22,730 nt of DNA, from positions 1-22,730 of the IMG/VR virus record IMGVR_UViG_3300034198_009672. One strand, given 5' to 3'. The stretch is from a virus. The notes under the pieces were generated by a model. That model was not told the DNA's origin and made no database searches. It was given only the letters and a program-made list of their open reading frames with translations. Each line of letters begins with the position of its first letter. Within the stretch, counting starts at the first letter, position 1. The position numbers and the translations under genes are program-made. This document shows, one piece after another, positions 1-21,757 of this stretch.

Positions 1-328
1 AAACTGCAACTGCGTAGCCGTGCTCAGCAACGGTGATGGCAATCTGCTCAGCCGTCAGAGCGTTCGTAGTCATACGAACACCTTCGGTGAGGGGTGTCGG
101 GTCAACCGAGAAGTTCTTGTAACGCAGGAAGTTCACGCGGAGACCGGGGGCAACACCAAGTTCCGTCTTCTTTACAGCGAACTGCTCGAAGCGGAGGATG
201 GGCATTGCCTGGAACAGGATTTCCTTGGACCAAATGGTCTGGATTGCCTGTGAGAGCTGGCTATTGGAGCCAGAGTAAGCGGTAGGAGCAGAAGCAAGCT
301 GCCCAGAACCGGTAATGGCAGAAGCCAT
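1..328 (-). CDS. Major capsid protein, N-terminal part (cut by window edge)
   Basis: This minus-strand reading frame is open from its ATG at 328 to the left edge, giving 109 codons. A strong AAGGAG ribosome site at 335-340 precedes the ATG. The protein starts MASAITGSGQLASAP and continues with IWSKEILFQAMPILRFEQFAV, KKTELGVAPGLRVNFLRYKN and TPLTEGVRMTTNALTAEQ. That run resembles the N-terminal arm of the N4-gp56/P22-type HK97-fold coat proteins as I recall them. Its position directly after portal and scaffold agrees: these genes normally run portal-scaffold-capsid. The product would form the icosahedral shell around the packaged genome. The C-terminal part lies outside the window, so total size and any maturation site cannot be judged. 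Confidence 0.85.
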   Translation of the reverse strand, partial: MASAITGSGQLASAPTAYSGSNSQLSQAIQTIWSKEILFQAMPILRFEQFAVKKTELGVAPGLRVNFLRYKNFSVDPTPLTEGVRMTTNALTAEQIAITVAEHGYAVAV

Positions 329-364: not shown

Positions 365-1132
365 CTAACCGAACAATCCCTGACCGCGATTGGTACCTGC
401 TGAACCGAGCAACTTGGCGCGGTTCTTTGCGTAATCAGATAGTGACATGTTCCTGAGGTCATCAGGAGATACCGAAATTTGGTCCGAATCATTATCGAGG
501 GGTCCGTTTGCCGGAGACGTAATACGTGCTCCGACCATTTCCTTGCGAGTCTGCTGTGTTGCTTGAGTAGCAGACTCAAAAATTCGAGTTGACTTGTCCT
601 TAAGCTGAGAAACACTCTGCTCAATTTCTTCAGGGGTGTTACCCTGAATAAGGTCAATCAGCTCTGGAAGAATATTTTCGCGTTCCTGTTCTACACGCTG
701 TTGGCGGTAAGCCGTCAGCTCCTGGTATTCGCGCTCACGCTCAAGAAGGGCAAAAGCAGACTCACGCTCAGCACGCTCACGTTCGAGCTGTGCATTAAAC
801 TCGTCTTCCTTAACCTTCAAAAGCTCTTTGAAGGACATTTCTTGCTCAGCTTCTTCGGCTTTCTTCTTAGCCGCTTCAGCTTCTCGTGCAGCACGCTGTG
901 CCTTACGTTCGTTTTCCTTTGCAATTTGCTCTTCGCGCTCTTTCTTGAGAACGTTGAGCTCCTCTTTCATCTTCTCCATAGAAGAGTAGAGCTTATCCTT
1001 TTCCTGTGCACGCGCCTTCTGAATATCTTCGGCGGTATACTGGGGGGTAGGCAATACGTCCTCGGCAAGCTGAACGGGGGGTGCTGTGATGGGGTCGGCT
1101 GCTTCTGCAACCTCTGTGTTGATTTCCGACAT
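365..1132 (-). CDS. Capsid scaffolding protein (long charged coiled coil)
   Basis: Encodes 255 residues. I chose the ATG at 1132 (MSEINTEVAEAADP) because AAGGAG sits just upstream in CAAAAGGAGACTTCATG; an in-frame start 23 codons further upstream has no comparable site. Residues about 35-165 are a nearly continuous Lys/Glu/Ala/Arg heptad-rich helix, with runs such as KKKAEEAEQEMSFKELLKVK and ERERAERESAFALLERERE. The C-terminal segment is basic (SLSDYAKNRAKLLGSAGTNR). A highly charged helical protein between portal and major capsid protein, ending in a short basic tail, is the typical profile of a phage internal scaffold that templates procapsid assembly and then exits. The assignment rests on position and composition, not on a specific sequence motif. 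Confidence 0.8.
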   Translation of the reverse strand: MSEINTEVAEAADPITAPPVQLAEDVLPTPQYTAEDIQKARAQEKDKLYSSMEKMKEELNVLKKEREEQIAKENERKAQRAAREAEAAKKKAEEAEQEMSFKELLKVKEDEFNAQLERERAERESAFALLEREREYQELTAYRQQRVEQERENILPELIDLIQGNTPEEIEQSVSQLKDKSTRIFESATQATQQTRKEMVGARITSPANGPLDNDSDQISVSPDDLRNMSLSDYAKNRAKLLGSAGTNRGQGLFG

Positions 1133-1254
1133 GAAGTCTCCTTTTGTTCTCTTGGTCGTTTTCCGAATTAATGACACATGACCTTGTCTGTATAGAGCCA
1201 AACTACCTACTGAGTAGATAACTGTCTCTATAAACTATGATTTCAGGTAATTAT
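1133..1254 (-). promoter_or_regulatory. 122-base gap before scaffold and capsid genes, possible promoter/operator
   Basis: This is the only sizeable gap inside the head-gene string. Reading in the transcription direction it holds two similar AT-rich boxes (TATAGAGACAG and TATACAGACA), a TGTCATTAAT element and, at 1207-1217, the 11-base palindrome CTACTGAGTAG. A dedicated promoter for abundantly needed scaffold and coat protein would make sense here. I see no clear -35/-10 pair, so the exact site is not assigned. Confidence 0.3.
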
Positions 1255-2988
1255 TTAGTTGTCCCTGTCAACTGCTCTACGAGATGGAAGCTTTGTTCCA
1301 TACGCGTCAGTGACAAGCTTGTTTCGGATGGCTTGCTCGCCCTGCAACTCCGCCGTATTGGCGTTCAAGTTGGGGTCGCCATTGGCTTCTTCACCGGGAG
1401 GGCCAAGAACACCATCTCCTAAGACATCTCCATTGCCTGTTAGCATGGGGTCCATAGGAGTAGCAGAGCCATCAGGACCGACCATCATTCCGGTCATGTC
1501 CATGATTTCTTTCTGTATTTGAACCTTAATGAGGTTCATCGCACCCTCAGCTTGAGCGTCATCGACAAGCTCGGAGCGGATTTCTTGCAGTTTTTCCTCG
1601 GGGAATTCTTCGCCCAAGGCACGGAGTGCGCCCTCCTTTGACTCCAGTCCCATTCCCATCTTCTGCTGAATCTCGTTGAGCAAGACTAGCTTGTCGAGCG
1701 GGAGAGGCTGGGGAAAGTGTGCATAAGTCTGGTACGTAAGCGGGTCATTGGGGTCCAACTGGTCAAGCTGGTCAGGCTTAATTGGGCCATCTGTATCTGC
1801 ATTGTAGATAAATGTTTCAGGCTCTTTGATAGCCAGGTTGAGCATAATAATTTCATTAATCTTCTCCAGTCCAGCGCCATACTGAGCTGTTTTCTGTGCC
1901 CAGCGGTTCATCAAAGGCTGGTACTGAATAGAGAGGGCCACACCAGAGGTGTTTGAAATAGGCTGAACTTGACCCAGAGCGGTTTCAGGGATGTTCATTA
2001 GTTCGTGCATAGAAGTCTTCAGCATCGCCATGTACTGCATAGCGCCAGCAAGACCGGCAGAACCGCCTTCAAGGTTGAATACCTGCGAGTCCTTGGGCAA
2101 ACCACCCCAGACCTTCTTAGCACCTTTTTCAAGGTTAGAAGCTTTAGCCCCAACAATTACCGTGACTGGAGCAGCGTGATAGTTGATGATGTCGGCAACG
2201 TCAGTGGCTATTTCGTTGTACGACCGATTAAGCGTGATAATGTCGTGGGCGTCGGAGAGTCCCCACGGTGAGCCAGAAACAGGGATATTCGGGATGTGTA
2301 CGACGGGAATTTCACCGAGCGGGTTAGGCCGCGAATCAATGAGCTCGTCGTTAATGTACTCTTCAATGATGTCATCAGTCAGAATCTCCGTGTAAGTAAA
2401 AACTTGACGGGTTCCCTCAAGTGAGGTTCCCCAAAAACGATACTTTTGCTTAAATCGTAATAGGCGGCTTCGGTCGTGGGGGTGAAACTCAGGGAAACAA
2501 AAAGCACTGTTCAATGGTAGGATGCGAACGCGGCCTGGATGTGCGCGACCAATAGAGTCGGTCCACGGCTCTTCATAAGCAATCTTTACAAAGCAGTCGC
2601 CTGTAATAGCGCCAATCTGAGACATCTCGAATAAGACGCGAATCTTATCGTTGTCAATTTCCCAAACGCGCTCAAGACGGTCAGGAATAATGGCTTCTGT
2701 GGCCTTTGGGCTACGAAACTGGACGCCCTTACCAAATACAAAGCGAGTCAAGAAGTCAATAAAGGCACGGTAGTAATTAAAAGAGACTTGAGTCTCACCC
2801 TGCTCACGTCGGTAGCCCCAGTGGTGTCCGAGGTACATAGCCCAGTTGAGCGAGTAACGGTTTAGACGAGGCCCGTGAACCTCAAACTCTTCATCAGCAA
2901 GTTCTACAAGCCCCAGAGGCGAGATGCTGATAGTTAGGTCAGAAGACGCCGCCCTATAACTGGGTGGTGAAAAATCTGCAAATGACAT
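1255..2988 (-). CDS. Portal protein
   Basis: Encodes 577 residues from ATG at 2988, overlapping the stop of the preceding gene by one base. The sequence has the general shape of the SPP1 gp6/phage_prot_Gp6-like portal family: an aromatic-rich N-terminal region (SLNWAMYLGHHWGYRREQGE), a core with HIPNIPVSGSPWGLSDAHDI followed by LNRSYNEIATDVADIINYHA, and the stretch ELMNIPETALGQVQPISNTS, which in portal proteins lies in the crown/clip part. The C-terminal 120 residues are acidic and rich in Gly/Asp/Asn, a common virion-interior tail. The product would form the dodecameric ring at one capsid vertex through which terminase drives DNA and to which the neck attaches. Gene order (terminase upstream, scaffold and coat downstream) supports this strongly. 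Domain boundaries are estimated by eye. Confidence 0.92.
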   Translation of the reverse strand: MSFADFSPPSYRAASSDLTISISPLGLVELADEEFEVHGPRLNRYSLNWAMYLGHHWGYRREQGETQVSFNYYRAFIDFLTRFVFGKGVQFRSPKATEAIIPDRLERVWEIDNDKIRVLFEMSQIGAITGDCFVKIAYEEPWTDSIGRAHPGRVRILPLNSAFCFPEFHPHDRSRLLRFKQKYRFWGTSLEGTRQVFTYTEILTDDIIEEYINDELIDSRPNPLGEIPVVHIPNIPVSGSPWGLSDAHDIITLNRSYNEIATDVADIINYHAAPVTVIVGAKASNLEKGAKKVWGGLPKDSQVFNLEGGSAGLAGAMQYMAMLKTSMHELMNIPETALGQVQPISNTSGVALSIQYQPLMNRWAQKTAQYGAGLEKINEIIMLNLAIKEPETFIYNADTDGPIKPDQLDQLDPNDPLTYQTYAHFPQPLPLDKLVLLNEIQQKMGMGLESKEGALRALGEEFPEEKLQEIRSELVDDAQAEGAMNLIKVQIQKEIMDMTGMMVGPDGSATPMDPMLTGNGDVLGDGVLGPPGEEANGDPNLNANTAELQGEQAIRNKLVTDAYGTKLPSRRAVDRDN

Positions 2989-3808: not shown

Positions 3809-5395
3809 CTAGAAGAATGACGAACTAGAGACTTCCACTTCCGGCATTACCAAGTCAACTGTCATTGAGCAACAAATAGCTAAAGAGTCCACATAGTCGT
3901 CGTGTGCGTAGGCTTCGTCAGGAGCTGAGACCATAAAATTAGCGCCCTTGTAAACAATTTCCGCATCCGTCATTTGTTGGACAAATCTCTTCCACACACG
4001 AAGTCGGCGGGTTTTGGCATGGGCAGGAAACCCTAACATACGTCTTTGGATGAGAGCTTGTAGATGTTTAAACCGTTTGGACTGCTCAGTAGGACTAGAG
4101 GTAAGAGGGATTACCTCGGCACGAGGCATAAGAATCTTCAAACGTTGGGCTACTGCGTCACCAACACCGTTAGCATCTACACCAATGGCAAGGACATCGT
4201 AGTTACTCAAGAAGTTGACGATTTGGAAGTACTGTTCCTCCCAATCGTCTCCTTGAATTTCTAGCCAGTTTAAGACTCTGTGTTCAAAATAACCGAACTC
4301 ATCTGGCCTATCCCAGTCAACCCAGACGACGGTAACAATAGTGGAGTCCATCTTACGGGCGGGGTCAATCCCCACAACCACGGGCGTCTTGTGCCATACC
4401 TTGACGATTTCCTGGCTTGTATCTCCAAGTTCATCCATGACAGACTGCGTGACGAACATTCCTCTTTCAAGGAGCCACTTGCAGTTGTAAGACATCTGGA
4501 ACTCATCAGAGTCTTCGCCAATGCGAAGCTTCTCTTTGCTAATGAACTTAGCGTAATTGTCATTGACTTTAGCAACGTCTCTCCAATCCCACTGGTAATG
4601 GTTTTGTCTTGCTCCGCGCCCCGTCGCCCGTCTTTTATTCAACTGAATTGACCTATAAAAGTTGTTCTTGCTAGTTGTAGGTGTACCCGTTTTAATCATG
4701 GTACCTGCGTAATAAGCAAGCATTGGAGAGATAGACTTTGCCACCATGAAGTCATCCGCTTCTTGGCACTCATCGATAACTGCAACGTGAAACGACTTAG
4801 ACTCAATCTTGGCTTTGGGGTTAGCCGTCATCATGGTCAGTGTAGACCCTGACCGCTTTAGGCGAATCATTTTGGTAACGCCACCCACACGGGCAGCACT
4901 GTCGTCAATCTCTGGGTCTCCCAAAACCTCAAGAGCACGTTCTGAGGTGAGTCTTGTGACTGTACGACTGAACAAGGTTTCGGCCTGGGATTCTGTGGGA
5001 GCAAACATGCCTACCCATAATCCGTCTTTAAACTTGCTCAACAATTCGGGGTAAATCTTTGCCAGCAGGGGCAAGATGACCATAAGAGTAGCAAGAGTGT
5101 CGGAAACAGTCTCGGTCTTTCCAGACTGACGAGACGCGAGTGCAGTAACCTCTTCACCATCGTTAATGATGATGGACTCAATGATTCTTCGAGCCAATGG
5201 TTTCTGGTAGACGTGCAGGTCGTGTCCAACCAACACAACCATAAAACTCATGATTTTTTCTACCAAGCTATTTACGAAGTCCTGGCTAAGTTCGTCTAGT
5301 TCCTCAAACCCTTCTTCAAGGTTTTCGGGCTCATGGTCTTCTTGGTAAAACTCAGGAGTTATCTCTTCAAATTTGTTCTCAGTATCAAAGGCCAC
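3809..5395 (-). CDS. terL: Terminase large subunit (packaging ATPase and nuclease)
   Basis: Encodes 528 residues from a GTG at 5395 lying inside the end of the preceding gene. The ATPase domain shows Walker A SRQSGKTE (88-95), Walker B VAVIDE with catalytic Glu (204-209) and a TGTPT coupling motif (236-240). The RNase H-like nuclease domain follows with GIDPAR (Asp344), IGVDANG (Asp407) and AHDDYVDSLAI (Asp499/500/503), the three acidic clusters that bind the metal ions. The enzyme cuts concatemeric DNA and pumps it through the portal. Length and motif order are normal for TerL. No convincing small terminase subunit is seen; one of the two small genes just upstream is the positional candidate. 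The ribosome site is weak (GAGACGG), suggesting coupling to the upstream gene. Confidence 0.97.
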   Translation of the reverse strand: MAFDTENKFEEITPEFYQEDHEPENLEEGFEELDELSQDFVNSLVEKIMSFMVVLVGHDLHVYQKPLARRIIESIIINDGEEVTALASRQSGKTETVSDTLATLMVILPLLAKIYPELLSKFKDGLWVGMFAPTESQAETLFSRTVTRLTSERALEVLGDPEIDDSAARVGGVTKMIRLKRSGSTLTMMTANPKAKIESKSFHVAVIDECQEADDFMVAKSISPMLAYYAGTMIKTGTPTTSKNNFYRSIQLNKRRATGRGARQNHYQWDWRDVAKVNDNYAKFISKEKLRIGEDSDEFQMSYNCKWLLERGMFVTQSVMDELGDTSQEIVKVWHKTPVVVGIDPARKMDSTIVTVVWVDWDRPDEFGYFEHRVLNWLEIQGDDWEEQYFQIVNFLSNYDVLAIGVDANGVGDAVAQRLKILMPRAEVIPLTSSPTEQSKRFKHLQALIQRRMLGFPAHAKTRRLRVWKRFVQQMTDAEIVYKGANFMVSAPDEAYAHDDYVDSLAICCSMTVDLVMPEVEVSSSSFF

Positions 5396-5874: not shown

Positions 5875-6531
5875 TTATCGCTTTCGTTTTTTGTCTGCCG
5901 GATTCCCAGCTTGTGGGTTTGCCTTTGTCTGCCGACGCGCAACCATTTCTGGATTGCCACGTTGTGGCTTAGGCTGACGATACAGCTGTTGTGCGCGAGA
6001 TACGCGGTAAAGCTGTTCTTGAATAGCGGGAGGGATGTCCTCAGGAGACGCTACCCCTCGGGGTTTTCCAATAAACAAGCCATCCATTTTTTGTTTTCCA
6101 TTTCTAAACCCACGGTTTAGCCAAGGCTTTCCCTTGGAGAATGACGCTGAAAAAGCTTCCCACTCTCCCGGATTAACCTGGTAATAGTTATAGAACGTTC
6201 CATCACGAAAAACTACCGTCATAGTTTTTGACTGTGGGTCATACCCAGCAGCTACTGTCCTAGGACGAGCGTAGTCAGTAGAGGATGTAGGAACATCCGT
6301 CAGAATAACTGAAGCAGTAGGCTCTGACACTTGCTCATTTTGATTGAGCACATAGGGGTCAGTTTGAGGGTCGTAGTAAGGAGCCTCTTGATAGTTGGCG
6401 CTTAGTTGGTTGTACTTGTCGTAACCTCTGTTAGCTCCAATGGACCTAACATCTTTTACAAATGGCGAAAGAGGTCCCATCTCACTGCGAGCAGGAAACT
6501 GCCCACCGAGAGGGACCCCTTCGTTAGCCAT
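5875..6531 (-). CDS. KTSC-domain protein
   Basis: Encodes 218 residues from ATG at 6531. Residues about 93-145 contain AAGYDPQSKTMTVVFRDGTF, then YNYYQVNPGEWEAFSASFSK and GKPWLNRGF. This matches the pattern of the KTSC domain (Pfam), a small beta-rich domain often found in phage and prophage proteins that reads roughly 'gYd...TLev.F.dGs.Y.Y..Vp...w..f..A.S.G.ffn'. The N-terminal part is Pro/Ser/Tyr-rich linker; the C-terminal 60 residues are basic and Gln-rich (LYRQPKPQRGNPEMVARRQ) and end in KKRKR. KTSC function is not well established; its location among virion genes suggests a structural or DNA-contacting role. There is no obvious ribosome site; the start is 12 bases after the stop of the upstream gene. 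Confidence 0.8.
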   Translation of the reverse strand: MANEGVPLGGQFPARSEMGPLSPFVKDVRSIGANRGYDKYNQLSANYQEAPYYDPQTDPYVLNQNEQVSEPTASVILTDVPTSSTDYARPRTVAAGYDPQSKTMTVVFRDGTFYNYYQVNPGEWEAFSASFSKGKPWLNRGFRNGKQKMDGLFIGKPRGVASPEDIPPAIQEQLYRVSRAQQLYRQPKPQRGNPEMVARRQTKANPQAGNPADKKRKR

Positions 6532-9299: not shown

Positions 9300-9587
9300 T
9301 CAGTTAGCGCCAATTCCTGAAGCACCCGAGTTTACCCCTGACGTATCAGCCCCCGCCTCAGAGATAGCTCCAGCCATCTTTGAGTCGGCGTCAGGCTGAG
9401 CTTGCTCACTCCACTGCGCAGCGGTAGTAACTCCGTTAAACATTGCCGTGCTGCCCATGTACGTGGGGTATCCGTACCACCAGTAACCGGCACCACTAAA
9501 TCCGCGCTCAGGAATTTGATTTCCGTACTTCCGCATTTCCTGCTCTAATGCAAGATTAAACTGGTTGACAGAAATAGGTGCCGTCAC
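9300..9587 (-). CDS. 95-residue Trp/Tyr/Gly-rich protein, unknown function
   Basis: Starts with GTG at 9587 in a four-base GTGA overlap with the stop of the acidic 41-residue gene, so it is probably translated by coupling; GAGGA lies just upstream. The N-terminal 27 residues predict a helix (SVNQFNLALEQEMRKYGNQI). A distinctive aromatic segment follows (GYWWYGYPTYMGSTAMFNGV), then a Gly/Ser/Ala-rich disordered C-terminus. No family recognised. The composition suits a virion-associated or assembly protein. Confidence 0.7.
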   Translation of the reverse strand: MTAPISVNQFNLALEQEMRKYGNQIPERGFSGAGYWWYGYPTYMGSTAMFNGVTTAAQWSEQAQPDADSKMAGAISEAGADTSGVNSGASGIGAN

Positions 9588-9709
9588 TCGGAGTCCTCAA
9601 TCTCTAGGTCTTCATCGTCCCAGATATCGCTATCCCAGTACTCGTCCTCATCCCACTCGTCGTCGCCAATGACGTCGTCAAGTTCCTCAGGAAGTTCTTT
9701 CTCCGTCAC
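9584..9709 (-). CDS. 41-residue extremely acidic microprotein
   Basis: A GTG at 9709 overlaps the TAG of the upstream gene (TAGTGA) and the ORF ends in a GTGA overlap with the next gene. It fills the gap exactly, with both junctions in the coupled style used throughout this genome. The product reads MTEKELPEELDDVIGDDEWD followed by EDEYWDSDIWDDEDLEIEDS E: well over half of the residues are Asp or Glu, with three Trp at spaced positions. DNA-mimic inhibitors and small acidic chaperone-like phage proteins have such composition, but no family match can be claimed. A good site would be expected upstream; coupling is more likely. Confidence 0.7.
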   Translation of the reverse strand: MTEKELPEELDDVIGDDEWDEDEYWDSDIWDDEDLEIEDSE

Positions 9710-9921
9710 TAGCCGCTCATTCCGCTACTAGCCGGAGCTCCTGCCGTGTGTCCAGCAAACTGATTTTGAGAGTCTGAGATGTCCAAAGCTTTTGGTCCTT
9801 CCCAGTGGGAAGTTTCTTCCATAGCCCCAGAGTTAGCTCTTGCAGTCTCGTTGCCGTCGTAAAAGTTTTCGTTGTGCCCTTGGGACATGAACATGCCATC
9901 GGGACCAGTAATAGTTGCCAT
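9709..9921 (-). CDS. 70-residue protein, leaderless start, unknown function
   Basis: The likely start is ATG 9921 (MATITGPDGMFMSQGHNENF); a longer frame to 9984 would run back through the terminator hairpin. The TGT-CACAAT-N6-ATG box immediately upstream and the absence of any Shine-Dalgarno indicate a leaderless message that begins a new unit after the terminator at 9942-9969. The chain is hydrophilic and Gly/Ser/Asn/His-rich (AMEETSHWEGPKALDISDSQ) with no recognisable domain. It is the first gene of the coupled string 9709-9584-9300. Confidence 0.65.
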   Translation of the reverse strand: MATITGPDGMFMSQGHNENFYDGNETARANSGAMEETSHWEGPKALDISDSQNQFAGHTAGAPASSGMSG

Positions 9922-11178: not shown

Positions 11179-11307
11179 ATGTCTGAAATTGACGAGACCG
11201 TAGAGGTCGAAGCAGAAGAGGTCGAGGCTGAAGAGGTCGAGGCTGAAGAGGTCGAGGCTGAAGAGGTCGAAGCTGACGAAGACGCCGACGAGGCTGACTC
11301 GGAGTAA
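11179..11307 (+). CDS. 42-residue acidic repeat protein (VEAEE repeats)
   Basis: ATG at 11179 follows AAAAGGAATAAAC, a good ribosome site, and a strong terminator follows the TAA. The product is MSEIDETVEV, then VEAEE-type pentapeptides in tandem, then EADEDADEADSE. It has no basic residue and no aromatic residue. Such a chain is disordered and could mimic nucleic acid charge or act as a flexible bait for a basic partner. The own promoter-like box, ribosome site and terminator make a strong case that this tiny gene is really expressed. No family is recognised. Confidence 0.75.
   Translation: MSEIDETVEVEAEEVEAEEVEAEEVEAEEVEADEDADEADSE
11203..11277 (+). repeat. Five tandem 15-base repeats coding for the VEAEE pentapeptide
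   Basis: Units begin at 11203, 11218, 11233, 11248 and 11263 with the core GAGGTCGARGCWGAM; the middle three are identical. The copies stay in frame, so unit number can change by slippage without breaking the protein. Confidence 0.9.
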
Positions 11308-11352: not shown

Positions 11353-11353
11353 G

Positions 11354-11426
11354 CTCCCCGACCTAGACTCGAACTAGGAACTTCGAAGTTAACAGCTTCG
11401 CACTCTGCCAATTGAGTTATCGAGGA
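11354..11426 (-). tRNA. tRNA-Asn (anticodon GTT)
   Basis: Minus strand folds as a full cloverleaf: acceptor TCCTCGA/TCGGGGA (7 bp with one T-G pair), D stem ACTC/GAGT with loop AATTGGCA, anticodon stem CGAAG/CTTCG with loop CTGTTAA (anticodon GTT), variable loop AAGTT, T stem CCTAG/CTAGG with loop TTCGAGT, and discriminator G. CCA is not encoded (CAA follows), so the host must add it. Phages carry tRNAs to match their codon use or to replace host tRNAs cleaved by defence nucleases; asparagine alone gives no strong preference between these. Confidence 0.95.
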
Positions 11427-11544: not shown

Positions 11545-11835
11545 TTAATTGGTTTTTTCTGCCCACGACGCGCCGCTCTCAGTGCGCACACCGCTGTGGC
11601 GCGGAGGAGTAACCCCTAAAGTTTTGGCGTGATTCCACAAGCCTGTGGCAATTCCCTTACGACGATGTTCTTTGTCAACGCTTACGTCTTCTACTCGCCC
11701 ACTTTTTCTGTGCCATCGCAGATAGCCAACAACATCTCCCACAGTAGGGTCAAAAGCCTCTAGTTCATGGGATGTAGGGTGCGTATCCGTAAACTTGTAC
11801 GAGATGCCGTTGAAGTCACCGTTATTGCGCCCCAT
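11545..11835 (-). CDS. GNAT-like acetyltransferase, short form, with MGRxNxDFxG N-terminus
   Basis: Encodes 96 residues from ATG at 11835 in a TAATG overlap with the preceding gene. The start MGRNNGDFNGISYKFTD is the shared tag. The GNAT motif A follows: VEDVSVDKEHRRKGIATGLW, where RRKGIA is the acetyl-CoA pyrophosphate-binding Q/RxxGxG/A turn. The tail PRHSGVRTESGASWAEKTN is a His-Ser...Arg-Thr...Trp-Ala pattern also found in the next gene. At under 100 residues it is shorter than full GNAT enzymes (about 140-170), lacking part of the N-terminal half, so it may dimerise or be inactive. A target cannot be inferred. The ribosome site is weak, so coupling to the upstream gene is likely. Confidence 0.75.
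   Translation of the reverse strand: MGRNNGDFNGISYKFTDTHPTSHELEAFDPTVGDVVGYLRWHRKSGRVEDVSVDKEHRRKGIATGLWNHAKTLGVTPPRHSGVRTESGASWAEKTN
11813..11835 (-). repeat. 23-base repeat, copy 1 (start of GNAT-like gene)
   Basis: Identical over 23 bases to 12687-12709. Both copies begin at an ATG and encode MGRNNGDF. Beyond this the two genes are unrelated. Confidence 0.9.
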
Positions 11836-12137
11836 TATTTACCAACCTTGGCTGCCCAAGCTTTACCCTCGTTTGTTTGTGTTGTGGGCTCAGAGTGCTC
11901 TGGGTTTAACCCTTGTTCTTTGGCGTATGCCCACATTCCGGAGGCAATACCTTTGCGCTGGTGCTCAGGGTTGACCATGACGTTGCGGACATTACGGCCC
12001 CGCCCTTTGCGCTCAAACCCAAGAAGCATGTGCCCCACAATTCCTTCTTCGGGGTGATTGGCGTGGATAAGAGCGCTCAACTTGTCAGCAGTGTGGCTGT
12101 ACGTAACCCCGTGAAAGTCCGAGTTACTTCTACCCAT
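11835..12137 (-). CDS. GNAT-like acetyltransferase paralogue with MGRxNxDFxG N-terminus
   Basis: Encodes 100 residues from ATG at 12137 in a TAATG overlap. The N-terminus MGRSNSDFHGVTYSHTADK is a diverged copy of the tag. The GNAT core is GRNVRNVMVNPEHQRKGIAS GMWAYAKEQGL, with QRKGIA in the acetyl-CoA-binding position. The tail PEHSEPTTQTNEGKAWAAKV parallels the tail of the next gene. The two proteins align along their whole length and are tandem paralogues; this one is somewhat more diverged at the tag. As with its partner, the chain is short for a GNAT enzyme. The two copies may have different substrates or form a heterodimer (inference). Confidence 0.75.
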   Translation of the reverse strand: MGRSNSDFHGVTYSHTADKLSALIHANHPEEGIVGHMLLGFERKGRGRNVRNVMVNPEHQRKGIASGMWAYAKEQGLNPEHSEPTTQTNEGKAWAAKVGK

Positions 12138-12709
12138 TAGCGGGCACCCTCAAACTCTTGAAAATTACCGGGGTGTAGTTGAGACGGGAAGTAACCGCCC
12201 TCACCGGGCTCAACAAGACGAGTATCAAGGTGTAGGGGAGCGCCCTTTCCTTGCGCTTTATCTTGGGCTACTTCATCCCAGCCCCGTACAATCTTTACGG
12301 GAAGGTGGGTGACCCCGGCTCGAAGGGCGGCAGCAAGTCGGTGATGCCCTTCGCCTAATGTTGCCCACTTTTCTTTGTGGTTGTACATGAGGTATAGCGG
12401 CTCACGGATTGCCCCCACCCCGTCTGTACGCAAGTCCTCACTGATATTAGAGATGTTTTTTTCACTAGTACTACGCGCGTCTCTGCCCTCTCGGTCAAGG
12501 GTTCGGAACCTAGTCAACTGATGTACTGGAAGTAGCGCAACATCGCGCCCGTAACGATGCCCCGGCTCTTGTTCAAGCTCTGGAGAAGCCTGACGTTCCG
12601 TGAGCGCATGGTCAGACCAACGTGCTCCTTTATTGTAGTCAGCTAGTCCGTCTCCGTGGTATACCGGATAAGAACTGCCCCCAGCAAAGTCACCGTTATT
12701 GCGCCCCAT
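12137..12709 (-). CDS. ParB/sulfiredoxin-fold protein with MGRxNxDFxG N-terminus
   Basis: Encodes 190 residues from ATG at 12709, sharing TAATG with the upstream 38-residue gene. The tag MGRNNGDFAGGSSYPVYHGD is followed by a linker. The ParB-like core contains VALLPVHQLTRFRTLDREGR, then EPLYLMYNHKEKWATLGEGH and HRLAAALRAGVTHLPVKIVR. The GEGHHRLAAA segment (119-128) corresponds to the G-x-HR-xxA box where ParB and sulfiredoxin-fold proteins bind a nucleotide phosphate. Phage members have been described as nucleases or as CTP/ATP-binding proteins. There is no HTH for sequence-specific DNA binding, so a partition role is unlikely. A similar, more distant protein is encoded at 21191-21757. Confidence 0.8.
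   Translation of the reverse strand: MGRNNGDFAGGSSYPVYHGDGLADYNKGARWSDHALTERQASPELEQEPGHRYGRDVALLPVHQLTRFRTLDREGRDARSTSEKNISNISEDLRTDGVGAIREPLYLMYNHKEKWATLGEGHHRLAAALRAGVTHLPVKIVRGWDEVAQDKAQGKGAPLHLDTRLVEPGEGGYFPSQLHPGNFQEFEGAR
12687..12709 (-). repeat. 23-base repeat, copy 2 (start of ParB-like gene)
   Basis: Same 23 bases as 11813-11835. The copies are in frame with the start codons of two genes whose remaining sequences are unrelated. Confidence 0.9.
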
Positions 12710-16547: not shown

Positions 16548-17018
16548 TCACGCTTCCTTTACGGGAACGTTATTTCTTCGGTATGCCGCAATCAAATTAC
16601 GCCCAGACTCTGGGGCAACGATACCAAAAGCGCTACGCGCGTGCGTGCGCGCGAATACCGCGTTGTGCCCCTCTACTTCAGGAACTTTGAGGAATTGACG
16701 CCCCAACCGCTCCACAAGGTGGGATGCTTCGTGCGTAACAGTACCCACGTTCAGACGGTCACGACGGAAGTGCAAGATGCCTTCTGTGTCCATCCCGGCA
16801 TGTAGATGCTCAGGCATGTCTACCTTGCGGGGGTTATACGCCCGAACTCCCTTACGTGCAGAGAACTGTGCTCTCAAGTCCTCGATTCCAGGCACGTTGT
16901 TGTGCATAGGGTGGTTGACAACTTCCTCTGTCAAGTCCCTTGCACCCGAAAGAGAAATCAGCTTTCCTGCGTGGGGGTCAGACGCTCGCCATTCTGATTC
17001 GGCTTTGTAAAGGCTCAC
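16548..17018 (-). CDS. HExxH metallohydrolase-like protein (156 residues)
   Basis: Starts with GTG at 17018, one base after the stop of the ART-like gene, so translation is probably coupled. The zincin signature is VGTVTHEASHLVERLG (His96, Glu97, His100), followed by VPEVEGHNAVFARTHARSAF, where His118 is the probable third ligand. The pattern HExxH...GHxxxF resembles the actinobacterial TIGR04338-type putative metallohydrolases and SprT-like zincins. The N-terminal half reads DPHAGKLISLSGARDLTEEV and RKVDMPEHLHAGMDTEGILH. A protease acting on host or virion proteins is plausible; no signal peptide is visible, so it acts in the cytoplasm or is carried by the particle. Confidence 0.75.
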   Translation of the reverse strand: MSLYKAESEWRASDPHAGKLISLSGARDLTEEVVNHPMHNNVPGIEDLRAQFSARKGVRAYNPRKVDMPEHLHAGMDTEGILHFRRDRLNVGTVTHEASHLVERLGRQFLKVPEVEGHNAVFARTHARSAFGIVAPESGRNLIAAYRRNNVPVKEA

Positions 17019-17019
17019 G

Positions 17020-17547
17020 TTATCGGCTCATTCGTAAGGTAGAAGCGGTAGCAATTCGTGGGGTGAAATTGACTACGGGCTTTTCTTCGTACTCTGTTTC
17101 CCCGTATTCGTTATTAGTAACGTCTCTAATTTTAGACATTCCGGTCAGTCTAATCGGTGCTCCATGGCGTACCGTTTTTTCTTTCTCCGAATGGTCGTGT
17201 GTGTAGATACCTTTACCGCCATAAATAAGCTTATCTTTGCCGTTGTTTTGCAAATCGGCTACATCATTTGGGTGGACGTATCCTTCTACCACGTAACCAA
17301 AGTTATTTTTGGTAGGACTGCCAAACTTTGTTGCAAAAGATTGAGCAACATACTTTTCTGTAGTCCAATGGTGCCCAATATCGTTGAAGTCTATATCGGA
17401 AGAAGACTTTAATCTATAAGGCCATCCTGTATGAATTCCTCGGTATACCTTGGTGTACCCCAGAGCGTCAAGGTCGTCTTGCTCCGGGGCCATTCCAGGT
17501 AAGTAATTATGCAGCTGTTTGCTACTCAAGTCGTAGGCGCTACTCAC
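17020..17547 (-). CDS. ADP-ribosyltransferase-like protein
   Basis: Encodes 175 residues from GTG 17547 in a four-base GTGA overlap with the preceding gene. The arrangement fits the R-S-E class of ADP-ribosyltransferases: VYRGIHTG (Arg36) for NAD binding, GHHWTTEKYVAQSFA (60-72) as the S/T-x-S-like strand and helix, and HSEKEKTVRHGAPIRLTG, with E121-K-E123 as a candidate ExE catalytic pair, followed by a beta strand. Many phages encode such enzymes (T4 Alt and ModA, MuF-linked domains), using NAD to modify host RNA polymerase or translation proteins. Sequence similarity is by motif only, and the Ser of the STS motif is Thr here, so activity needs proof. No signal peptide is visible. Confidence 0.65.
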   Translation of the reverse strand: MSSAYDLSSKQLHNYLPGMAPEQDDLDALGYTKVYRGIHTGWPYRLKSSSDIDFNDIGHHWTTEKYVAQSFATKFGSPTKNNFGYVVEGYVHPNDVADLQNNGKDKLIYGGKGIYTHDHSEKEKTVRHGAPIRLTGMSKIRDVTNNEYGETEYEEKPVVNFTPRIATASTLRMSR

Positions 17548-18671
17548 GTTAGGTCAAACCTCTGCTGTTTCCAGTAACCGTCTCTGGGAAAATCTACGTT
17601 AGCTCTAGTGTTATACTTATTCAAACGGGTGAGGTAGACATCTCTGGCTTCTTTAGCTGCATCGCGCTCCAAGTTACCTCTTTGGTCTAGCAATTCGCGA
17701 ACGTGAGGGTGTGTGTGGTACATCTCCCCCAACACCAGCTGGTCAGACAAGTGTGCGTGCTCTTGTTTTGACAGCGTTTCTTCCTCGGTAGAAGATATAA
17801 GTGCCCTACCAAGATGAGACTCTGCTCTTTCAGGTATTCCTACGCCGGGAGTGTCATGCAACGAAGCTTGAAGCCTAGTAGCCGCATACAGTGCTCGTTG
17901 AGTACCCCCGTAAAAATGTTGTGGAGTATACCCGGCACCACTGGCGTGATTACTTGCTATCTCCCTTCTTCGGGACTCACTTACCTCATGCAGGGCGGAC
18001 TCTAACCTGGGGCGCTCAAACCTATCCGCAAAGCCTTCAGCAACCCCCTCTTGAATGGGGTCCGCAGCGTTGGTATTCCGGTGCCGTCCGTAAGCATTTT
18101 CGTCACTAACTTCTAATCCATGACCCATCTCATGGATTAAAGTTCGTTTAAGTTTTGGTGTTCCGGTTACAAAGTCGTCTTTACGGAAAGCCCCCGTGTT
18201 TAACGTCAAATCTCCGCCCAGGTAATTGGGAGTTTTCCCCTCGGGAGTTTCCTGGTCAATAACTCCACGAGGTTTTCTTTTCAATGCTCCCGTTACTCGA
18301 TAATCTTCTTTAGAATTTGCGCTTACGTCAAACGAAGCTTTATTCAGAACATGAATAGGAATAGTAGTTTTTTTAAGCGCCTCAGTCAGTCCGTGCGTAA
18401 TAGACTTTCGTGTTTCTGGGTCGTCCCAATACTCGGGAACAGAAGTTAGACGCAAAGTTCTGGCAGCAGCCTCCTCGTACTCCCCTTTAGCAAGAGAGGG
18501 GTCTTTAGACGTTCCTGTTCCCCAGTGAGGGTCAAACAGCATTCCTTGGTAAGAAACTCCAGGCGAATGCTCGCCTGTTCCCTCGGGTCTAAAGTTGTCC
18601 TTAGTATGAAACTTTAGTTCCCCATTCTCATCCTCATGAAAAGTATTCTCAAACTGTTTTCCATAAGGCAT
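17544..18671 (-). CDS. Zinc metallopeptidase-like protein (gluzincin pattern)
   Basis: Encodes 375 residues from ATG at 18671 in a TAATG overlap. The signature is RTLIHEMGHGLEVSDENAYG (His180, Glu181, His184), followed by PIQEGVAEGFADRFERP, in which Glu208 or Glu212 is the expected third zinc ligand of a gluzincin. The N-terminal 170 residues contain EYEEAAARTLRLTSVPEYWD and NYLGGDLTLNTGAFRKDDFV, the latter leading into the active-site helix as in other zincins. The C-terminal 150 residues are helical and charged. There is no signal peptide, so the target is cytoplasmic or it works within the virion. It resembles toxin-type or MuF-associated metallopeptidases in build; the substrate is unknown. 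Confidence 0.8.
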   Translation of the reverse strand: MPYGKQFENTFHEDENGELKFHTKDNFRPEGTGEHSPGVSYQGMLFDPHWGTGTSKDPSLAKGEYEEAAARTLRLTSVPEYWDDPETRKSITHGLTEALKKTTIPIHVLNKASFDVSANSKEDYRVTGALKRKPRGVIDQETPEGKTPNYLGGDLTLNTGAFRKDDFVTGTPKLKRTLIHEMGHGLEVSDENAYGRHRNTNAADPIQEGVAEGFADRFERPRLESALHEVSESRRREIASNHASGAGYTPQHFYGGTQRALYAATRLQASLHDTPGVGIPERAESHLGRALISSTEEETLSKQEHAHLSDQLVLGEMYHTHPHVRELLDQRGNLERDAAKEARDVYLTRLNKYNTRANVDFPRDGYWKQQRFDLT

Positions 18672-21077: not shown

Positions 21078-21228
21078 CTTCAGAGAGCTTATGCCCCAGG
21101 TCGTTCCAACATTCGCGGCATTTCCCCAGCCACAGTTCTCCTACGTCATCCTTGCAAGCGCTACAGGCTAACACTGTTCTCCAAATGGTTTTATACGGAA
21201 TCTTTATACCGGGGGTGTGAATACCCAT
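21070..21228 (-). CDS. Zinc-ribbon microprotein (CxxC...CxxC)
   Basis: From ATG 21228 the product reads MGIHTPGIKIPYKTIWRTVL, then ACSACKDDVGELWLGKCREC and WNDLGHKLSEDD (52 residues). The paired CSAC and CREC motifs 12 residues apart form a compact zinc ribbon. This start overlaps the ParB-like gene by 38 bases and has no ribosome site. A GTG at 21174 has GGAG four bases upstream, lies beyond the previous stop and would give a 34-residue product that keeps both motifs; I consider it equally likely. The role is unknown; zinc ribbons of this size often contact proteins or nucleic acid. Confidence 0.65.
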   Translation of the reverse strand: MGIHTPGIKIPYKTIWRTVLACSACKDDVGELWLGKCRECWNDLGHKLSEDD

Positions 21229-21757
21229 GATAACGCAAAGGCAAGAATTCGTCAGGTCGGTCTCTCGCCATTACGGCAACTCGGTGATGACCGTCTGTAA
21301 GGAATGAGCTCTGCAAGTCCATGCGGATAGGCTCTTCCCAGTTGTACCCCTTCTCAGCAATGTCTTTGGTCAAACCGCCAAATTCACCGTTCTTCCACTT
21401 AAAGCTCTCGGGTACATCAACCTCGTTGTCTGACTCAGCTGCTTTGCGAGCCATAAGAGCCTCGTCGCTCTCGTAAACGGGCTCTTTTCCTACCCAAGCT
21501 TTTTTACGACTATTCCACACCTTTGGTTTACCACCAACAATCCTGTGGTCCATCAATTTTGCATGACCCAAGATTTCGGGCGCTGTGGCAAAGAACGGGG
21601 GCGTAATAGACCCGTCTGAGTTCCTAGCAAAAAGTTGCTGAGAAACATTGGGGTTTAATTCTGGCTCAGGTGCGGGAGTAGGCTTAGCCTTCTTATCTTC
21701 GTACTTAGACCAGTTAATACCACCGAGAGCATTGGGGTCTTTTTTCTTACGAGCCAT
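21191..21757 (-). CDS. ParB/sulfiredoxin-like protein (188 residues)
   Basis: Starts at ATG 21757, six bases after a TGT-CAGACT promoter box and without a ribosome site. The N-terminus is basic and Pro-rich (MARKKKDPNALGGINWSKYE). The core near the C-terminus reads FGGLTKDIAEKGYNWEEPIR, then MDLQSSFLTDGHHRVAVMAR and RPDEFLPLRYHGYSHPRYKD. The DGHHRVAVM segment (155-163) matches the G-H-HR-xAxA box of ParB-like domains, the same motif as GEGHHRLAAA in the gene at 12137-12709, although the rest is different. A nucleotide-binding or nuclease role is likely by family; specificity is unknown. Confidence 0.75.
   Translation of the reverse strand: MARKKKDPNALGGINWSKYEDKKAKPTPAPEPELNPNVSQQLFARNSDGSITPPFFATAPEILGHAKLMDHRIVGGKPKVWNSRKKAWVGKEPVYESDEALMARKAAESDNEVDVPESFKWKNGEFGGLTKDIAEKGYNWEEPIRMDLQSSFLTDGHHRVAVMARDRPDEFLPLRYHGYSHPRYKDSV

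Follow-up and report, generated by a model that had tools for sequence, protein, structure and literature searches.

A short N-terminal peptide shared by unrelated small proteins of tailed phages: a candidate capsid-loading address

The capsid targeting sequence of bacteriophage T4 is an N-terminal sequence carried by the internal proteins and by Alt, and it sends its cargo into the prohead (PMC5694885). The N-terminus of the P1 protein DarB packages a reporter into the capsid. For this function residues 6-10 are critical, and 30 residues are sufficient, whereas nine are not; no consensus shared by the N-termini of the Dar proteins was found (PMC9024508). The polyvalent proteins described by Iyer et al. 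(2017) contain ADP-ribosyltransferase (ART), GNAT, ParB/DdrB-ParB and peptidase domains and were proposed to be injected with the DNA. For solo GNATs encoded near the late structural genes of mycobacteriophages, deployment from the capsid was suggested (PMC5512222). The payloads of eCIS/PVC carry disordered N-terminal signals, by which a variety of effectors is loaded into a phage-tail-like particle (PMC11495950).

The peptide described here is encoded at the start of three adjacent genes in a 22.7-kb fragment of a tailed phage (the window, that is, the whole stretch of DNA analyzed). As in T4, a short N-terminal peptide is found on otherwise different proteins, an ADP-ribosyltransferase included. 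However, the T4 sequence is a 10-20 residue propeptide cut off by the protease gp21, whereas the phages of the window type have another motif and no protease was found among their scanned head genes. The signal of DarB is likewise N-terminal and sits on a large antirestriction protein. Unlike the Dar proteins, which lack a consensus, the present set has one strong consensus on dozens of small single-domain proteins. The domain repertoire is that of the polyvalent proteins, but the latter are mainly multidomain fusions, including MuF, whereas the tagged domains are separate genes with a common tag. Being single-domain, the tagged proteins are not polyvalent proteins in the strict sense. The eCIS/PVC signals differ in their length of 50-70 residues and in serving to load a tail tube, with an ATPase; the tags found here have 8-11 residues and a head-gene context. 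Among the papers searched, nothing relevant was found on the tag peptide or on shared N-terminal packaging motifs. The tag would work like a capsid targeting sequence; a likeness to that class is claimed, and not membership of it.

The tagged genes of the window

The three tagged genes are on the minus strand and start at 11835, 12137 and 12709 (Table 1; genes 1, 2 and 3, respectively). The MGRxNxDFxG start attributed to them in a preliminary description of the sequence is present in all three. The positions given there as gene starts, 11545, 11835 and 12137, mark the boundaries with the lower coordinates, which on this strand are the 3' ends of the genes. The identity that description reported between the starts of genes 1 and 3 is exactly 23 nucleotides long. 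The only other repeat found among the 18-mers of the window consists of 15-bp repeats at about 11215-11260. A short ORF at 11179-11307 (+) contains near-perfect 15-bp repeats and encodes EVEAEEVEAE... The triplet is chained by TAATG overlaps, at 12137 and at 11835, between a gene's start and the stop codon of the gene before it. A tRNA-Asn (gtt) gene at 11353-11426 (-) lies directly downstream of the tagged genes, whose own starts are Asn-rich.

Table 1. Positions of the tagged genes and of other features in the window
Feature	Position	Strand	Basis or remark
ParB-like protein (gene 3), 190 aa, tag 1 MGRNNGDFAGG	12137..12709	-	PHROG ParB matches; Foldseek ParB/sulfiredoxin folds
Tag 1 codons 1-8 of ParB-like gene	12686..12709	-	12687-12709 identical to 11813-11835
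GNAT acetyltransferase (gene 2), 100 aa, tag 1 MGRSNSDFHG	11835..12137	-	Pfam; TAATG overlap with upstream stop
GNAT acetyltransferase (gene 1), 96 aa, tag 1 MGRNNGDFNG	11545..11835	-	Pfam; AlphaFold; TAATG overlap with upstream stop
Small late-region protein, diverged tag-1-like start MSQGHNENFYDG	9709..9888	-	Orthologues L066:6891 and L071:7223, 52% identity
ADP-ribosyltransferase-like effector, tag-2-like start MSSAYDLSSKQL	17020..17547	-	Homologue L066:378 starts MSASDHLGPQF
HExxH metallopeptidase-like protein, start MPYGKQF (tag-2-like, tentative)	17544..18671	-	HEMGH in sequence; L004 orthologue MPLGKQF
Terminase large subunit (context)	3809..5395	-	72-89% identity in tag-1 phages; 52% with Streptomyces phage BRock
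Portal protein (context)	1255..2988	-	
Scaffold-like protein, between portal and capsid protein	365..1201	-	Position as in Alone3; 36% identity to L262 counterpart
Major capsid protein, N-terminal part, cut by window end	2..328	-	

The proteins behind the shared start had been called unrelated. This is true of gene 3, which is ParB-like, but genes 1 and 2 both encode GNATs and are paralogues with an identity of about 40%; the triplet contains two kinds of domain and not three. Both GNATs match the Pfam family and have the Q/R-x-x-G-x-G/A motif (RRKGIA, QRKGIA). The AlphaFold model of the gene 1 product matches GNAT structures in Foldseek, with weak E-values. The product of gene 3 has a ParB-like/sulfiredoxin fold and a GxHR-type motif. 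Its PDB profile match to ParB-like proteins is weak, and a Pfam search of the protein itself gave no match. The C-terminal tail of this ParB-like family (window 12140-12709 and homologues) is strongly conserved too (HPGNFQEFEGAR).

The genes of the window recur in a 92-kb IMG/VR record (IMGVR_UViG_3300032219_001867, G008). The orthologues of the small late-region protein start with MGANNQDFFDG (L066:6891) and MGANNSDFFDG (L071:7223). Two metallopeptidase-like HExxH proteins flank the ART-like gene, one at 16548-17018 (-) with HEASH and one at 17544-18671 (-) with HEMGH; a Pfam search with both gave no match.

Distribution and conservation of tag 1

Exact degenerate-DNA scans of IMG/VR found the start M[G/T/A/P]RNNADF, termed tag 1, in about 44 phage contigs, at dozens of gene starts followed by unrelated bodies. 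The preliminary description had proposed to look for this N-terminus on other domains in related phages, and had named its confinement to the local triplet among the findings that would speak against a signal. The N-terminus occurs on many other domains in many phages, and confinement to the triplet is excluded by these scans. Tag-1 genes form arrays of up to five genes in one locus (L004) and eight in another (L043).

In the loci of tag phages, 25 ORFs start with five of the six residues of RNNADF, against 0.2 expected from permuted motifs; the class matching all six was left out as evidence, because the way the loci were retrieved enriches it. Gapped triplets were also enumerated at gene starts, which were chosen by rule, and families were defined by clustering what follows residue 14. 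Tag 1 ranks top in this enumeration, with N-N-x-x-F starts on 28-29 non-homologous families versus 0.33 expected from internal windows, a count that measures the diversity of bodies and not the frequency among phages, since the loci were fetched by tag 1. The families were clustered by BLAST, and distant homology, for example among the ARTs, would reduce the count of 28; it could not fall to one, because GNAT, ART and ParB are different folds.

The reversed tag pattern never matches in tag-bearing records. A tag-1 scan of 257 Gb of cellular genomes gave 81 loci, none of them a tagged phage-like gene start; on inspection these were mostly in-gene or out-of-frame chance matches. A tblastn search for isolates, with five tagged bodies as queries, found no match. 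Shorter tag-1-like starts of the form R-x-x-[DE]-F (MGRKEEF, MGRNAEF, MSRSEEF) occur at L264:1971, L174, L184 and L166, on Zn-ribbon-like and Arr-like proteins, and may be degenerate forms of tag 1.

The tagged proteins have about 50-210 amino acids and at most one recognized domain each; two or more domains in one polypeptide were not found. Among 74 of them, Pfam matches were to Acetyltransf_1 (15), Arr-ms (9), ART-PolyVal (2), ParB_N (1) and ddrB-ParB (1), and there are further matches to phrog_3147 and several ParB PHROGs. The nine Arr-like proteins, all in related loci, match PF12120, and their profile finds solved Arr structures (PDB 2hw2). ART, GNAT, ParB and peptidase bodies, which make up the polyvalent-type repertoire, are all represented, the peptidase calls being by eye only. 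Many of the tagged proteins are small and have no assigned domain, some of them with 50-100 amino acids and nothing recognizable. Certain effector-like proteins encoded by these phages lack both tag 1 and the second tag described below. In two phages whose only tagged proteins are small, a gene resembles, by eye, an N-terminal nucleophile (proteasome-like) hydrolase (L067:300-848 (+), L049:4355-4918 (-)).

The 71 de-duplicated tagged genes use 48 distinct 18-mers for codons 3-8, with Arg encoded by CGT, CGC, AGA or AGG, showing that tag 1 is repeated at the level of the protein and not of the DNA. Across genomes, these codons have a pS of 0.85, which is saturated, and a pN of 0.13 (pN/pS 0.16). 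The value is 0.25 in the 32 genes that lack the exact query peptide. Just after the tag, in codons 9-14, pN/pS rises to 0.73-0.87, as for unrelated sequence. The synonymous saturation excludes a DNA-level signal or simple duplication as a sufficient explanation. Residue 2 is always G, T, P or A, though it was left free in the main scan. Removal of the initiator Met by methionine aminopeptidase fits a small residue at this position, and the Met of the tagged proteins is probably removed. Tag 1 is predicted to be disordered. In the model of the gene 1 product, the pLDDT of residues 1-7 is below 50, and residue 12 is where the strands start; in that of the gene 3 product, for which the alignment is shallow, residues 1-49 are below 50.

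Tag 2 and tag exchange

Untagged homologues in the tag-1 phages were found to begin with ...ENxGxQF, which led to a second tag. Tag 2 was first noticed post hoc, and the dedicated scan for it was separate. This IMG/VR scan, on MxAxDHLGxQF, gave ten loci, all with a tag 2 start and eight of them new. The bodies behind tag 2 (M.ASDHLGxQF) are ART-like (L259, L260, L066, L004), ParB-like (L262, L266) and papain-like (L264), and L259 has an array of genes starting with DHLGKQF, DNLSxxQL and related forms. Degenerate tag 2 is only modestly enriched (LGxQF on 6 families vs 1.0), and the tag is firmly established for its DHLGxQF core only. The motif ENxGxQF by itself is informative only in tag phages, as nearly all its matches are due to chance and lie in other genes.

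Two further candidates for tag 2 carriers in the window were rejected or considered weak: the KTSC protein (5875-6531, MANEGVPLGGQF), in whose homologues the motif is lost, and the 9300-9587 family, whose homologues are without it. LGGINW/LPGINW may be a third N-terminal motif; it occurs on a ParB-like protein and on another of 357 aa, which has an L004 orthologue (window 21191-21757 (-), L166:1009-2079 (-), L004 about 590-1700 (+)).

Homologous bodies carry either tag, and the homology begins right after the tag. The ParB-like protein of the window (12709(-)) has a tag-swapped counterpart at L008:12200(-) (53%). In the ART pair (49.5%), L043:6772(-) reads MARNNVDFN followed by TFYHASWKQNR, and L022:4150 reads MTPENVGQQFRE followed by LYHASWRQNR. 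The papain-like pair is L071:6450 and L264:1461 (43%); this assignment was made by eye, a Pfam search of the two having given no match. At the level of sequence, these pairs show that tags 1 and 2 are modular, exchangeable N-terminal parts on the same domain types.

Genomic setting and proposed function

A terminase related to that of the window is present in 19 of the 44 tag-1 records, 72-89% identical (100% in G008). The tagged genes share the strand of the terminase in all 19. They lie 5-13 kb upstream of it in 15 (in one case across the contig ends), at about 17 kb from it in two and elsewhere in two. A phrog_2 search of other tag-1 records found no terminase in 18 of 20, so that membership of a single family is unproven for those fragments. 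The nearest isolates by terminase are the Streptomyces phages BRock and Alone3, both 52% identical to the window's, with the same order of head genes. Judged from terminase affinity alone, the tag-1 phages are tailed phages distantly related to BRock, with hosts that are probably actinobacterial. No tag 1 or tag 2 gene start was found in BRock or Alone3. Since these two phages possess the head genes without the tags, the tag does not belong to the core of head assembly.

L262 is more distantly related (portal 55%, capsid protein 53%). In it, a ParB-like gene with tag 2 has its start within the stop codon of the portal gene (GTGA) and is followed by the scaffold gene. The latter, between the portal and major capsid protein genes, is the counterpart of the scaffold-like gene of the window. 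A second tag-2 ParB-like gene adjoins the capsid gene. In L266 a tag-2 gene is found directly before the connector gene, which is followed by the sheath and tube genes. Part of the MuF/head morphogenesis protein of Gordonia phage Jabberwocky is similar to the ParB-like body. In large Mycobacterium phages, Blubba among them, a single protein joins ParB-like and GNAT segments. The mycobacteriophage homologues of GNAT and ParB that were found are either fusions or lack a tag.

We suggest that tag 1 is an N-terminal capsid-loading address on effectors, with a probability of roughly 0.58. The reading was reached because the bodies resemble those of putatively injected proteins and because T4 and P1 provide N-terminal precedents. 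The core R-N-N-A-D-F would be appended by the phage family to a varying assortment of small, single-domain proteins, including many host-modifying enzymes (GNAT, Arr-like ADP-ribosyltransferase, ParB-like). The tag would be recognized by a head component, such as the scaffold, portal or capsid protein or a small late adaptor. The tagged enzymes would then be enclosed in the prohead and delivered with the DNA into the next host. The tag would act like the targeting sequences of T4 and P1, probably without proteolytic removal. Tag 2 (core DHLGxQF / ENxGxQF) may serve this purpose too, for the same types of domain, tags and bodies having been swapped. That RNNADF and DHLGxQF are each read by a head component and together load interchangeable single-domain effectors into heads is a more tentative proposal, a little short of an even chance. 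Delivery from the capsid interior is suggested by context: the effector domains, the head-gene neighborhood, the MuF homologue and the tag exchange.

The main rival is that the tag docks the proteins on one intracellular partner during infection, nothing being packaged. The partner might be a host machine (ribosome, RNA polymerase, protease) or a phage hub protein, which would gather or silence newly made enzymes. The features of the tag (short, disordered, constrained as protein, present on unrelated enzymes) would suit docking of any kind, the tagged operons are translationally coupled, and the genomic context fits packaging and another late-infection use alike. However, docking leaves unexplained both the placement in the portal-scaffold-capsid cassette and the match of the bodies to the MuF head protein and to domains for which injection has been proposed. 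We consider it unlikely.

It is less probable again that the common start is a recombination module capturing domains, its peptide having no function. The 23-nucleotide identity between starts 1 and 3 and the TAATG overlaps in 39 of 76 tagged genes fit such a module, as does a codon identity between non-homologous tags of 0.61 within a genome versus 0.55 between genomes (permutation p = 0.04). However, the peptide is kept while synonymous sites are saturated, the five adjacent tags of L004 use different codons, and homologous bodies bear one or the other of two different tags at the same position. The preliminary description had left the choice between a signal and recombination at gene starts. 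A signal on different domains agrees with the present data; recombination may be the route by which the tag spreads, but does not account for its retention at the protein level.

A cleaved propeptide, removed by a prohead protease exactly as in T4, is very improbable. The tag length of 8-11 residues, near the 10-20 residues of T4 propeptides, and the small residue (G) often found at position 10-11 would suit cleavage. However, the scanned head genes gave no match to a protease family, and none is annotated in the parts of the complete relative Alone3 that were examined, in which a separate scaffold protein is annotated; T4-like trimming, of which no sign was found, is therefore unlikely. Least probable of all is a translation element (an early-codon or coupling signal), for although the A/T-rich codons AGA, AAT and GCA are over-represented and the starts tightly coupled, the same or nearly the same peptide is written in 48 different 18-mers in which Arg alternates between CGN and AGR.

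How phages select the proteins that travel within the head is known in few models: T4, P1 and some giant phages. If tag 1 is indeed a capsid-loading address, such a compact motif, legible in the DNA itself, would make it possible to predict packaged effectors from metagenomes. Genes now called hypothetical would become a testable injected arsenal, and the tag would be a very short, transferable loading tag. Two tags in the same type of phage would, if the proposal is true, represent a modular counterpart of the polyvalent proteins, with a peptide label in place of covalent fusion and with payloads exchanged one gene at a time. The presence of both tags on the same domain types opens their function to swap experiments in a laboratory phage.
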